From assembly GCA_017871115.1 (NCBI GenBank), contig JAFCIZ010000005.1, positions 5,015,501-5,079,500 of the forward strand: a DNA stretch of 64,000 nt. Direction: 5' to 3'. This DNA comes from Cunninghamella blakesleeana. Its lineage: Eukaryota; Mucoromycota; Mucoromycetes; Mucorales; Cunninghamellaceae. Below the pieces are notes generated by a model. The model did not search any database. It worked only from the letters and a program-made list of their open reading frames with translations, and was not told where the DNA came from. This document shows, piece after piece, positions 1 to 25,281 of the stretch (positions are counted from its first letter, which is position 1; the number at the start of each line of letters is the position of its first letter). The translations under genes and the position numbers were made by a program.

Positions 1-2893
1 AATGCTTATACAAGATATTGGGGGAATCCTTGTAATGATCCTTCATATGATCCTGACTTTTTACTTGCTGAAGCCGAACAAGATCAGCGTCTTCGTGCAT
101 TAAGCTGGTCGGCTGCAAGCTCAATTCTACAACAACAACAGCGAAAAAAAAATCAAAACAATCCAGCAATAATATCAACTTCTCCTTCTTCCTCTTTAAC
201 CTCTTCAATCTCCTCTTTAAAATCGGATGATGAAGATGAAGATGACAACAATAGTGAAAATGAAGACGATATTAGACAGCCATTATTACCAACACATAAT
301 CACCATCATCAGCATTCGAAATTAAAACAAAAACAACATAAATTATTTTCTAAAATGAAAAAAAAGGCAAAGGAACCGCTGAGACCTCTGGCAAAAGATG
401 GGTTTTTAGGCATGGTTGGAAAAAATGTAGATGCTATTGAATATTTTACTGAAAAATATAATCAATTGGATACTAAAGTCTTTAAAGCTCGTCGATATGG
501 CAAGTTCTTACCTACTAGCGTTGGATTTGTCACTTTTGAAGAACCTATGAGTGCTGTAAGTATAAATGATATTAGTTATAATGATTTTTATTATTATTTA
601 TTAAAAAAAGTTGAAACGTTTATTTATCTAAATGCTAATAATATTCTTTTTCTTAATATTTTAATCCCTATTCGCATGTGTATATATATATTAGACTATC
701 ACCTCTCAAGTATTAATTGATTCTACTCCATTTAGATTAAATGCTCAACAAGCGCCCGAACCTCGAGATGTTCTTTGGGAAAATATTGCTATGCATGGTA
801 GAGAACGATTGATTCGTAAAGGGTTAATTTTTGGTATTCAAATTCTTTTAGTGTTCTTTTGGGTCATTCCTATCTCTTTCTTTTCAGCTCTTACAAGTGA
901 AAATTCTTTAAAATATTATTTCCCCTGGCTTATGGATTTGGCTTCTAAAAATAAAATTTTACAGCAAGTTATACAATCTTTCTTACCAACCCTTGGTGTT
1001 GTCATTTTTACGGCTTTTCTTCCTATGATTCTTCATGGTAATCCTAATAATAATACTAACAATAATAATATATAAATGAATAATGAATTATAATGCTGAT
1101 ACTCATATTGCCATTCTTTTTTATTTTTATTTATTATATATATATATAAATATAGCATTAAGTATTATAGAAGGTTTTCCTACACGAAGTGAAGCTGAAG
1201 AATCAACATTTAGCAAGTAAGGATAATGATATTAATAATGCTGTTTTACTTTCATTTTTTCATAACTAACAACAATTGTATAATCACATTATGTAGGCAC
1301 TTTTTCTTTTTACTATTTAATGTATTGCTTGTATTTACGCTTTCAAGTACTTTATTCAAGACACTCCATGACATATTGGAAGATCCTACTCAATTGGCAA
1401 ATATTTTAGCTATTAACCTACCTAAGGTTGCTCCTTTTTTTGTGAATTATATTGTAATGCATGGAATGATGTTGTAAGTGCTTATTTTTATTTTTAAGGT
1501 TTTTATTCTTTTTTAAAAAAACAGTTTAATTATGTTACTAAGCAAACTAAAATCAATTTTTCTTTTTTCTTTTTTCTATTATATATAGATTACCTATTCA
1601 ACTTTTACAAATTGGTCCAGTTATATTACAGTTGTTCCATCGTGTTTTTACTTGTAGGACACCACGTGATTATGCTGAAGTGTTAGCTCCTCGTATGTAT
1701 AATTATGGATGGGGATACCCAATACCAGTATTTGTCTTTGTAGTTCTTTTAGTATATTCAACAATCACTCCTCTTATATTGGTCTTTGGAGCTTTATATT
1801 TTTGTTTATCTTATCTAGTATTCAAATATCAATTACTTTATGGTAAAAACATGGCTGAATAATATGCTATTTTTTTTTTTTTTTTTTTTTTACAAGAGTA
1901 TCTAGTTAATCACTCATCAATTTATTTATTTCATTTCTATGATTAGTTTATTTCCATCCTTATGAAGTAGCAGGACGTATGTGGCCATTAGTATTTTCAA
2001 GAATTATTGTTGGGTTACTTATTTTTGAAGTATTAGCAGCAGGCTTATTTGTATTGAACAAAGCATATACTTTGGCAGTACTTTGTACACCATTAGTAGG
2101 ATTAACAATTCTATTTAATTTTGGTATGGATAGAGCTTATCAAAGCAGCACACAGCATATACCTATAAAATTACTATCTCAACGATTTGGACCACTTAAA
2201 TCAACAGTAACAAGACCTCCTTCACCTGTATTTGCTAATGAAACAAATCCAGAGCAACCCATTACAACAACAGCAACATCAATGAATAATAATAATGCAG
2301 CATATGTTTCCATTGGTCGTAGACGAAGAGCTGTGTTGGATGAAGATGATTTTGAAGCAGAAGGAAGAAAATACACTAATTTTAAAGAACCACCTATGAC
2401 ATTATTGGATGGTATATTAAATACTGGTATGAAACGTTATGCTCACCCTGCTTTTCTTGGAGTACTTCCCTCATTATGGTTACCAAATAAAGCAAAAAAA
2501 AAGAATTCATTCGTTGATGCAAATGACCAAGCACCTCTTCATATCGATCCAAATGGAGTTATTCAACCTACAGAAGATGCAAATGAACCAACTATAGTCA
2601 GCAGTCCCATAGAAAATACGAATAGAGATTTATTAGCCATTAAAGAAGAAGAAGAACATGAAGAAATGGAAAGTCAACAAAATAAAGCATCGTCTAGTAC
2701 TAGTCCTACTACAAAGAATCAACCTATACCCACCAGAAATATATCTCAACAACGACATGGCTCTATTAATGACATGCCTTCTGATGATGATGAGGATGAT
2801 AGTTTAGAAGATGGCTTAACTTACTATCATCATCCTGAAAGAAAGTTATCTAGATCAGTAAGTAAATCGTATGGTTCTACTGGTAAACCTTAA
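1..2893 (+). CDS. CSC1: CSC1/OSCA-type stress-gated cation channel, 5' end missing
   Basis: C-terminal 778 codons of a protein that begins before the window. Exons: 1-555, 695-1037, 1156-1216, 1297-1473, 1589-1842, 1947-2893; all junctions keep the frame. The segment after the first intron reads FRLNAQQAPEPRDVLWENI, followed by a multi-pass block with PTLGVVIFTAFLPMIL, EGFPTRSEAE and QIGPVILQLFHRVFTCRTPRD. These are landmarks of the RSN1/DUF221 core of osmosensitive Ca2+-permeable channels in the plasma or internal membrane. The part before residue 120 is a low-complexity cytosolic loop with Ser, Asp/Glu and His runs. The last 220 residues are a long, charged, disordered tail with acidic clusters, probably regulatory. 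Family assignment is firm; which paralogue is unknown. Confidence 0.9.
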
Positions 2894-21357: not shown

Positions 21358-22064
21358 AAAAATATTTATTTATTTTTATTTAATATATATGTAATAAATA
21401 GAATAGATAATCATAACATTAATAAAAAAAAATATCACATCATTTAAAAAAGCGAATGGGCATCCCTTTAATTTTTTTCATGCGGTTATAGTTACATCCT
21501 ATTTTTCGACGTTGACCTTTTTTTTTTCCCTCCAATATCCAAACTTCACTATTATCCAAAGAAAGTGATATTCCAAATACATATATAAATCCAATAGTTC
21601 TTCATAAACCTATAATAACTATAAATAAAAGAAAAAGAAAAAAAAGAGCATACACATAATACTAACACACTCATCCAACACACATGCATATTCAACTATT
21701 TATTATTTTTTACTTTAATCACTCCATATCACTTTCTTTTATGTTTTTTCCTCTCCCTTCCTTTTTTATTTTTTATTTTTTTAAAGGTCATTTATTTATT
21801 GTCGAGGGTATTTTCACGTCGCAGGTACTAACCTTATCCGCTATTGAGGGTATGATCTCAGCCTGGTAATGCTTTACCTGGCACCCCTTTATTCCTCAGA
21901 CAAAAATATGGCCTTTTTTACATTATTTAATTATTCTTTTATTATTATTATTTCACCTATCTTTACCTTTTTTATATGTTGTTATAAATAAATTAATAAA
22001 TTACCTAGGATTAGTGATTAAAAAAAGTACACGTATATAATAAATAGTTGTTGATTCCTTTTCT
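21358..22064. other. Convergent spacer holding a TPP riboswitch
   Basis: 707 bp between the HIS2 stop and the transporter stop. It contains the TPP aptamer (21801-21901, minus), a second small GC-richer patch at about 21451-21520, and otherwise poly-T/A sequence. Small open frames here look like non-coding low-complexity sequence. Confidence 0.7.
21801..21901 (-). promoter_or_regulatory. Thiamine pyrophosphate (TPP) riboswitch aptamer
   Basis: Read on the minus strand, a complete TPP aptamer can be drawn. P1: GTC-T-GAGG (21901-21894) with CCTCGAC (21807-21801), seven pairs and one bulge. Then the conserved GGGGTGCC (21887-21880). P3 hairpin: GGTAA/TTACC, loop AGCA (21878-21865). The pyrimidine-sensing strand GGCTGAGATCATACCC (21863-21848) is essentially consensus. 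In the pyrophosphate arm, P4 is GCG (21841-21839) with CGT (21818-21816). Its internal loop has GATA opposite GCGA, which keeps the canonical GAU and GCG. P5 is AGG/CCT with loop TTAGTA. P5 differs from the common UGG/CCA by compensating changes, which supports a real fold. It starts 163 nt after the stop of the MFS transporter on the same strand, so it probably lies in that gene's 3' UTR. No minus-strand gene is evident downstream of it. Confidence 0.93.
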
Positions 22065-23865
22065 TCAAACGGCTAATTTGTTATCATCGTAAGAAGGATT
22101 GCCCAATTTATCAGAGACAAAACCGACTTTGGAATTAAATAAACTATCAATTTCTTCCAAAGAACGACCTTTAGTTTCGGGCAACATGACGAGTGTTCCA
22201 ATCAAGAGAATGGTACAGGTTCCACCAAAGAAATAATAACCACCATAAATTGTGTTATTCATAAAGATAGGCATGACAAAAGTCATAAAGATAGAAATAG
22301 CCCAATTTAAACCATAAGCCAAAGATAACCCTTTTGAACGTGTGCGTTGATTTAAAATTTCAGCAGGATAAATATATCCAATAGGGCCAAAACTATAATA
22401 ATAGGCAAATTGGAAAATAAAAACCATAGCAATTACGGTATTTCGAGCATTAGTATTAGATAAGCCGAGTGTTCCTTCATCATCCATAATAGTATGATAA
22501 CCTTGAAAGAGACCACCACATATGAACATACTAGCCGCCATGAAAAATGCGCCACTACTTAATGCAAGTTTACGCCCAATATGATCAATATAGATTAGTG
22601 TAAAAATACTGGCCACTAAGGATACTATATTTGAAGCGCCACTAGCTACTAAAGATACCCCGGTATCATTTAATCCTGCTTGTTTCATGATAAGTGGGGA
22701 ATAATAGGTGATGGCAGTAGTTCCTATATAATGTATATATATAAAAAAATGAATATATTAATGAGTAGATATTCTCTTTTATTATTATTATTATAATTGC
22801 TTTATATATATAATTACCTGTAAAAGCGGCGCCATTGCCTACAAAAAGGGCATAAAAAGTACGACGACAGTTTGTTCCTTTAAATAATTCCATATATGTT
22901 CTATTTCCAAAAGAGCGTTCATGTTCTAATTCAGAAACAATAACATTATATTCTTCTTCTACAATAGGATCATCTAAAGATGAGCATTGATATAATTGAG
23001 CCAAGACTTGACGTGCTTCCTTCGTACGACCTTTATCAATTAACCATCTTGGACTAAAAGGCAACCAAACGGTTGTCAAGACAATCAAACAGAATCCCAA
23101 ATGAATTAAAAAGGGAGCTCTCCAACTCCAATCATTTACAAGATAATTAGTACCAAATGTAACAAAATATCCTATAATGACACCAATTCCAGCTGCAACA
23201 CTAAATGTAGTAATCAATCTTCCTCGAATAGCAGGTGGAGAAATTTCTGTATGCTAATGAGGAAAAAAAAAAAAAAAAAAACATGTATATGTATCTATAT
23301 TAGTCATCTATAAATGATGTTTATTTATATATCATTTTATTATTGAAATTCTTACATATAAAGGGATTGCGTTTGTTAAAAAACCTTCTCCAAATCCAAC
23401 AAATAATCTTCCAGCTAACATCATACCAAAATTATACCCAATTGTTTCGAGTAAACAGCCAATAGCAAATAAAGCAGCGCCTAATAAAATAGTATACTTT
23501 CTACTTATCTTATCTATTAAATAAAAATATATTTCTATCTGGTTAGATCATCCATGTAAAAATAATAATAATAAAGAGACTAATGATGTGCATATGATAT
23601 AAAAATATATGTGTATATATTTACCACAAACATCTCCAGAAAATAAACCACCCAATGTAGCAGTTAATAACATTAAAGATACCAACAGACTAGAACGGTA
23701 AGTGCTATCAACGTATAAAAAACGATCAATAAAAGGCTGGACCATCATAGCAGAACTAACAGCGCCAAAATCATACCCAATACTAACAGCCCCAACAGCC
23801 GCTAAAGTAGAATACCAATATAATCCTTTGTTCATTTTAAACTTTTTAGGATCGGTTGTAGACAT
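22065..23865 (-). CDS. MFS transporter, sugar-porter family; TPP riboswitch downstream
   Basis: Minus-strand exons: 23625-23865, 23356-23513, 22818-23253, 22065-22723; 497 residues and about 12 membrane segments, a normal size. Sugar-porter landmarks: GYDFGAVSSAMM in TM1, AGRLFVGFGEGF, SPRWLIDKGRTKEA, an IDHIGRK loop, the FGPIGYIYPAEI region and LPETKGRSLEEIDSLF at the end. Sequence alone would give 'hexose or related transporter'. The TPP aptamer on the same strand 163 nt past the stop suggests thiamine control, so thiamine or a precursor is a possible substrate; that part is inference. A possible 5' splice site (CCTAG then GTAATT) lies at 22004, between stop codon and aptamer. Confidence 0.93.
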
Positions 23866-24746: not shown

Positions 24747-25281
24747 ATGGTAAAACTTGAAGAAGTATCCGTTGACCAATACGAAGAAAAGATTGAAGAT
24801 ATTGTCAGTGATAATGAATCTGAATACAGTGATGAAGATGATTTCGATGAAGATGACGAAGACGAATCCATTTTAGATCGTCTTGCTGCTTTAAAAGATA
24901 TCATTCCTTTAAAGCATCGTAACAACTTTTCTTCCGGTGTCCAATCTTTAACTTCCTGGGGAAAAACAGGAGCTACCTTTGTCGGTAAAAGTGCTTGGGT
25001 ATTAACTACATCCATGTTATTATTGGTATTGCCTCTTGCTTTGGAAATTGAAAAAGAACAAGCTTTGGTGGCTTATGAACAAGAAGCTATGCAACAACAA
25101 CAAGGTGCTCAACAAGTAAGTGAGATTATCGATGATGAAAAGAAAAAGTAATAATGATGAAAAAACAAACTGAATATGTAATTTTTAATTTTATTTTTTA
25201 AAAAAATAGATGATGGGTTCTCCTATGTATCCAACTGGTCAATTACCTCAACAACCTCAACAACCTCAACAAAAACAATAA
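24747..25281 (+). CDS. TOM22: Mitochondrial import receptor subunit Tom22
   Basis: Two exons, 24747-25115 and 25210-25281; 146 residues. An acidic cytosolic head (residues 20-41) is followed by SILDRLAALKDIIPLKHR and SLTSWGKTGATFVGKSAWVL. One membrane span lies at about 83-100, and the intermembrane-space tail is Gln-rich. This order, with the W-containing amphipathic stretch before the span and the LPLALEIEKEQ exit, is the Tom22 pattern. Tom22 receives presequence proteins and organises the TOM complex in the outer membrane. The small last exon encodes only a Met/Pro/Gln tail; without splicing, the frame would end at 25151. Confidence 0.92.

Follow-up and report, generated by a model that had tools for sequence, protein, structure and literature searches.

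A TPP aptamer 3' of a candidate thiamine-carrier gene of Cunninghamella blakesleeana, one of four found downstream of stop codons

Results

A TPP Aptamer Downstream of SUG1

The window, a 64,000-nt stretch of a Cunninghamella blakesleeana contig (JAFCIZ010000005.1), carries on its minus strand an MFS transporter gene, here called SUG1 (table 1). The Pfam assignment of SUG1 was made on its best relative among the matches listed, Cunninghamella echinulata P0001, which shows 99% identity to it over 98% and shares its C-terminus, DDNKLAV. Head to head with SUG1 lies an acidic 134-aa ORF (24747-25151, plus strand) with a single hydrophobic stretch, by eye similar to Tom22, an import receptor of mitochondria. 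Beyond the 3' end of SUG1, the neighboring gene on the opposite strand encodes a PHP domain, consistent with the histidinol phosphatase HIS2 proposed in the initial annotation, and no minus-strand gene intervenes, as that annotation also held, given that no same-strand ORF of at least 70 aa occurs for about 1.8 kb.

It is in this 3' region, 163 nt past the stop codon of the transporter, that the initial annotation had recognized a complete TPP aptamer on the minus strand. Its reading is borne out by the sequence and by a full-length alignment to the Rfam TPP model RF00059: all the parts that it had named are present, the element is closed by a seven-pair P1 with one bulged T (nine pairs with the next two), and P4 and P5, whose letters deviate from the RF00059 family consensus, nonetheless remain paired. 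As a whole, the element is more stable than most shuffled versions of itself (131-nt fold, z = -2.31, with equally good folds in 5/200 shuffles). In a 601-nt scan by E-value, this was the sole match to any family (RF00059, 41.1 bits, E = 1.2e-6, model positions 1-105 of 105). The default Rfam scan of the window, at the gathering score of 54.3 bits, returned no match because 41.1 bits falls under this threshold, which serves curation and is not a feature of the RNA. The initial annotation would have counted the lack of a hit above threshold as a refutation, which, taken literally, is the outcome here. We give this shortfall less weight than the setting of the matches: in 32 Mb four were found (see below), and all adjoin thiamine-type genes. 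In this regard, fungal-specific TPP models are described as superior to the generic one in the accessible text of PMC11683625. We are highly confident that the SUG1 element is a genuine TPP aptamer in a 3' position.

Table 1. Features of the SUG1 locus, in window coordinates
Feature	Position	Strand	Basis
SUG1, MFS transporter gene (PF00083), 497 aa; exons 23865-23625, 23513-23356, 23253-22818, 22723-22065; stop 22067-22065	22065..23865	-	exons joined and translated
Stop codon to P1, 163 nt, taken as 3' UTR (putative)	21902..22064	-	sequence
Splice-donor-like TAG/GTAATT, GT at 22004-22003 (stop+61)	21999..22007	-	donor scoring
Second donor-like site, AAG/GTAAAG (stop+99)	GT at 21966-21965	-	donor scoring
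RF00059 match	21797-21898	-	601-nt scan by E-value
P1 5' strand, TTGTC-T-GAGG, one bulge	21894..21903	-	sequence, folding
P1, seven pairs, GTC-GAGG/CCTC-GAC	21901-21894/21807-21801	-	sequence
Aptamer core	21816..21887	-	RF00059 alignments, sequence
GGGGTGCC	21887-21880	-	sequence
P2 5' strand, within GGGG	21887-21884	-	part of aptamer core
P3 hairpin	about 21881-21862	-	part of aptamer core
GGCTGAGATCATACCC	21863-21848	-	sequence
Pyrimidine-sensing CTGAGA	21861-21856	-	part of aptamer core
P2 3' strand, CCC	21850-21848	-	part of aptamer core
P4, GCG/CGT	21841-21839 with 21818-21816	-	sequence
Internal loop, GAT	21838-21836	-	sequence
P5, AGG/CCT	21834-21832 with 21825-21823	-	sequence
Internal loop, pyrophosphate-sensing GCG	21822-21820	-	part of aptamer core
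P1 3' strand, CCTCGACAA	21799..21807	-	sequence, P1 folding
AATAAATAAA, similar to a poly(A) signal; overlaps P1 at its 3' end, inside the fold-predicted extended P1	21791..21800	-	folding, signal scan
Intergenic stretch, from the element to the end of the convergent HIS2-type gene	21358..21796	.	no same-strand ORF >=70 aa

Four Elements Share One Layout

A genome-wide RF00059 search (31.9 Mb, 12 contigs, E <= 0.001) uncovered at least four matches in the Cunninghamella genome; scoring covered 49 of the 695 candidates from the first look, and a weak fifth element could have escaped. They score 41.1-52.2 bits (genome E-values 2.7e-8 to 1.5e-5), the SUG1 element being the lowest and none of the four reaching 54.3, and every one of them aligns over the full length of the model (1-105) and contains the CTGAGA and GCG motifs. 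A pattern search independent of P3 yielded nine rows, made up of the same four aptamers and of five rows at four other places devoid of an RF00059 match, against four rows for its reversed control pattern.

The four aptamers are borne by NMT1/THI5, by THI4, and by two MFS genes, SUG1 and SUG2 (table 2). According to the flanks, which were read and translated, each of them sits on the coding strand, 163-230 nt downstream of the stop codon, and none lies in an intron, whether of the 5' UTR or internal, or elsewhere in a 5' UTR. NMT1 is present as a single gene in the genome (two exon matches) and THI4 as one strong match, and both carry an aptamer; the four further Thi4-model matches of the genome search, at 24-27 bits and in two cases with a flag for exceeding the cut-off, are presumably other FAD enzymes. 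As for sugar porters, whose matches in the genome amount to 39 exons or pieces, an aptamer lies beside two, namely SUG1 and its best-scoring paralogue SUG2, which is 50% identical to it when the next paralogue by score reaches 36%. With four loci displaying the same layout, 3' placement is an arrangement of several genes and no lone oddity, and we accordingly abandoned the view that one element had been misplaced: the initial annotation knew one TPP aptamer 3' of a same-strand transporter, and the genome has this layout at all four of the elements found. Strand, position, and the four-of-four pattern are computational results that hold for this one genome.

Table 2. The four aptamer-bearing genes and their 3' regions. 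P1 was assessed by pairing the 30 nt before P2 with the 34 nt after P4; the random control pairs are 30-mers, slightly shorter than the real pair. Flank and AGGTA-site controls are described in the text
Property	NMT1/THI5 (356 aa)	THI4 (312 aa)	SUG2 (MFS gene)	SUG1 (MFS gene of the window)
Pfam	NMT1	Thi4	Sugar_tr (PF00083)	PF00083 via P0001
Strand of aptamer	coding	coding	coding	coding
Stop to anchor motif (P1/P2), nt	230	212	195	166 (163 to P1)
P1 pairs, with gaps	16	15	19	21
P1 energy, kcal/mol	-17.2	-12.8	-11.4	-18.2
Shuffles equalling P1, of 1000	0	0	5	0
Random control pairs equalling P1, of 2000	3	27	66	2
Control flanks matching or beating best donor, of 97	17	39	3	9
Control AGGTA sites pairing with P4/P5 as well as donor, of 21	0	15	17	3 (first donor), 20 (second donor)
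Control flanks with as good a best pairing anywhere in 3' region, of 97	20	67	92	44
Start of P2	TAG	no AG	AAG	AAG

The layout also bears on whether each element is part of the upstream gene, as it might instead start a different RNA or serve as 5' leader to the same-strand gene that comes next. There is most room for such a leader at SUG2, whose element precedes a same-strand PHO4-family phosphate transporter gene by about 1 kb. By contrast, the next recognizable same-strand gene is DAHP-synthase-like (by eye) and about 1.8-2 kb off at SUG1, beyond the opposite-strand PHP-domain gene; it is catalase-like (by eye) and more than 2 kb off at NMT1, with two unrecognizable frames (87 and 70 aa) in between; and none occurs within about 4.9 kb at THI4. 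Moreover, the upstream genes are consistent partners, all four being thiamine-type genes or their MFS partners, which makes a leader or separate RNA very improbable.

Two further observations concern the surroundings of these elements. On the strand opposite NMT1 and 3' of it, there is what appears by eye to be a broken hexapeptide-type acetyltransferase gene, interrupted by stops (L001, about 1000-1310, plus strand), and viral contigs, when scanned for relatives that come with flanking DNA, yielded none.

A Long P1 at All Four Loci

The P1 helix is long at all four loci, and its stability is seldom equalled by shuffles or by random control pairs (table 2). Since the letters of P1 differ among the four helices, it is the pairing that has been kept and not the sequence. 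At SUG1, the extended helix includes AATAAATAAA, which resembles a poly(A) signal.

These features must be weighed against the possibility that the aptamers are vestigial or unresponsive, that is, that the fold is kept and perhaps still binds TPP, when control of the gene has been lost, as is reported for diatom THIC. Diatom TPP aptamers, all of which are located in 3' UTRs, are well conserved and yet showed no response to thiamine in the tests reported, and one diatom P1 overlaps a predicted poly(A) site (accessible text of PMC9544697), which parallels both the position of the Cunninghamella elements and the overlap seen at SUG1. The low RF00059 scores of the four elements point the same way. 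On the other hand, four diverged copies at four genes have retained CTGAGA, GCG, and a long P1, which suggests selection, even if the diatom copies are conserved too. By analogy, the diatom aptamers constitute the main caution for a functional reading of those of Cunninghamella, although we consider loss of control unlikely here.

Splice Sites and Poly(A) Signals in the 3' Regions

In plants, the TPP aptamer masks, within the 3' UTR, a 5' splice site when TPP is low, and high TPP frees this site (PMC10226581, accessible text); in plants and green algae, the acceptor AG is described as lying within the AGGG of P2 (PMC9544697, accessible text). Comparable signals were looked for against control flanks, defined as the 200 nt that follow frames of at least 150 aa (possibly not all true gene ends), of which 97 of the original 100 were retained once three target genes had been removed. 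A donor-like AGGTA, a motif picked after viewing the sequences, occurs upstream of the aptamer at 4/4 loci versus 17/97 controls (20/100 before the targets were removed). Under a donor model built from 113 automatically predicted introns (median score 7.7), the two SUG1 donors score 8.0 (stop+61) and 8.2 (stop+99), the better of which is matched by 9/97 control flanks; the corresponding numbers at the other loci range widely (table 2), and support for an upstream splice donor appears modest. Two more donor-like sites fall within the SUG1 aptamer itself, CAG/GTAAAG in P3 (21877-21872, minus strand, score 7.2) and AAG/GTTAGT in P5/L5 (21832-21827, minus strand, score 7.6).

Pairing of the donor with P4/P5 was not upheld as a general rule when compared with control AGGTA sites: no control site does as well at NMT1, most do at THI4 and SUG2, and at SUG1 the first donor is middling and the second poor. 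When the whole 3' region is considered, the best pairing is unremarkable at each of the four loci. As to acceptors, the introns predicted in this genome end with TAG (101/113) or CAG (12), the only two endings that the prediction allowed, and the TAG with which P2 begins at NMT1 would close a putative intron some 190 nt long. We looked for an acceptor position common to all four 3' regions, and for a common intron that would end at the aptamer or span it, and found neither at the four loci. On these sequence grounds, the combination of donor pairing and acceptor appears convincing at NMT1 only, the element of which looks THIC-like.

The same regions were considered for poly(A) signals, given that a P1 stabilized by TPP could hide or expose such signals and thereby govern polyadenylation or stability without any splicing, a sub-route of the feedback reading preferred below. 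At three of the four loci (SUG1, NMT1, and THI4), AATAAA is found inside the extended P1 or no more than about 20 nt downstream of P1, P1 is long at all four, and the lack of an acceptor common to the four loci also fits this scheme. However, AATAAA is frequent anyway (51/100 control flanks) in such sequence, the GC content of which is 27% over the four loci with their flanks, and near the 3' side of the SUG2 P1 none is present. We hold this P1-gated formation of 3' ends only tentatively, as nearly as likely as the splicing route. The SUG1 aptamer, for its part, holds a poly(A)-signal-like hexamer, since another AATAAA (21893-21888, minus strand, stop+172) forms the 5' side of its P1/P2 joint.

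SUG1 Belongs to a Clade That Lacks Most Sugar-Binding Residues

Both MFS genes match a sugar-porter family, and the most direct reading would be that TPP controls sugar uptake, with SUG1 as a true sugar carrier, as implied by the name TPPsw-SUGAR. The PF00083 match, the solved structures nearest to P0001 by sequence, which are sugar porters, and this published annotation (PMC11683625, accessible text) all agree with it. We compared the residues of the sugar site across the best 120 of 1156 matches (7999 scored candidates), aligned together with the C-terminal part of SUG2 (n = 121). In STP10, the residues contacting the sugar are Q177, Q295, Q296, N301, W410, and N433. Five of these six are changed in both paralogues and the last is kept, the series Gln/Gln/Gln/Asn/Trp/Asn becoming S/A/A/T/Y/N in SUG1 and T/T/A/V/Y/N in SUG2. 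Among the matches listed, the 40 closest relatives of SUG1 (>=57% identity) have Ser for the TM5 Gln in 39/40 and Ala for each of the two TM7 Gln in 39/40, the TM7 Asn and the TM10 Trp are present in 0/40, and the TM11 Asn is kept in 39/40, this last point being in favor of a sugar carrier. Middling relatives (42-56%, n = 16 among those aligned, SUG2 included) mostly have Thr, Thr, Ser, Val, and Tyr, and the Gln residues are kept in three of the four listed matches at 36-41%. The contrast is tempered by the distant relatives listed (n = 61), in which the TM5 Gln (33) and the first TM7 Gln (32) are variable too, the only nearly constant residues being the second TM7 Gln (60) and the TM10 Trp (51).

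The transporter repertoire of the genome argues in the same direction as the clade. DUR31 is an SSF protein, and a search of the genome for an SSF-type gene gave no match. The genome has one NCS1-type (PF02133) gene (G000:C1:6699762-6701386), with no RF00059 match beside it. DUR31 being the thiamin transporter of Candida (PMC5997356, accessible text), a thiamine carrier would thus be otherwise wanting in Cunninghamella, or else be the NCS1 gene. With most of the sugar-binding residues of sugar porters absent from its clade, SUG1 is probably not a sugar carrier and is more likely, as we infer from these residues, a carrier of thiamine or of a precursor; control of sugar uptake by TPP appears quite unlikely. 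One homologue, P0007 of Gongronella sp. w5, is named a hexose transporter by its source, and the words "hexose transporter" are absent from the text of PMC7874188.

Discussion

We propose, with a probability of roughly 0.65, that SUG1 encodes a carrier of thiamine (or of a precursor), that its mRNA includes in the 3' region the TPP aptamer described above, one of four such aptamers found in this genome, and that this aptamer mediates TPP feedback through splicing or 3' processing. Taken by itself, feedback by TPP on the upstream gene, exerted through the aptamer, is likely. The mechanism would presumably start with transcription through the element: TPP binding would close the core and the long P1 during synthesis of the 3' region, the closed aptamer would alter splicing or cleavage/polyadenylation of that region, and plentiful TPP would thereby leave a less stable or less active mRNA, a negative feedback comparable with that of plant THIC. 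Within this feedback reading, THIC-like splicing coupled to a choice of 3' end is a possibility, suggested by analogy, to which we give somewhat less than even odds.

The Cunninghamella elements recall Arabidopsis THIC in that a TPP aptamer follows the stop codon of a thiamine gene, with a possible donor upstream in the 3' region; at NMT1 only, this donor can pair with P4/P5 and P2 opens with TAG. They differ from it by the kingdom, by their targets (NMT1, THI4, and two transporters), and by donor pairing and acceptors that are inconsistent over the four loci. With respect to fungi, TPP riboswitches have been sorted into types I-IV (Mukherjee 2018, PMC5882874), of which, in the accessible text, type I occupies 5'-UTR introns, type III internal introns, and type IV 5' UTRs. 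The aptamer class and two of the targets, NMT1 and THI4, are the same in Cunninghamella, whereas unlike types I, III, and IV all four elements come after the stop codon. The same text mentions a Mucor NMT1 element and reports fungal elements in 3' UTRs as well; the one case that it shows is eIF5B of Postia placenta, with two copies for which validation by energy minimization failed (PMC5882874).

Closer to SUG1, the name TPPsw-SUGAR has been given to TPP elements, known chiefly from Mucoromycota, that accompany genes with a sugar-transporter annotation (Vargas-Junior 2024, PMC11683625). The gene family is probably the same, both Cunninghamella MFS genes matching PF00083, but TPPsw-SUGAR elements are placed "consistently" or mostly in the 5' UTR according to the accessible text, unlike the two MFS-linked elements found here, which are both 3' of the gene; Cunninghamella does not appear by name in the main text of that study (PMC11683625). 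The published claim of 5'-UTR elements that control sugar transport in Mucoromycota thus misfits this genome as regards placement, and its sugar reading seems doubtful.

The aptamer class is known, and it is its 3' place in a fungus that is unusual. In the open-access literature searched, we came across no fungal NMT1, THI4, or transporter gene described as having a 3' TPP element; 3' elements may be covered in Moldovan 2018 (Fungal Genet Biol). Riboswitches at the 3' end of eukaryotic genes are established in plants, and a whole fungal set would provide a second, genetically separate system in which to ask how RNA past the stop codon controls a gene. A broader and more tentative hypothesis, which we would not put at even odds, is that TPP control has moved wholesale to mRNA 3' ends in Cunninghamella, and perhaps in other Mucorales, across NMT1, THI4, and uptake genes. 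In such a scenario, the aptamers would choose splice or poly(A) sites, would have arisen independently of plant THIC, and would serve a thiamine carrier derived from sugar porters and replacing the DUR31 type.

At any rate, the SUG1 family offers a concrete candidate for a thiamine carrier. With regard to its distribution, two proteins of Basidiobolus, a genus outside Mucorales, are as close to SUG1 as are several of its Mucorales relatives (P0011 and P0013, 61-62% identical), a likeness that could reflect either transfer between fungi or deep conservation.
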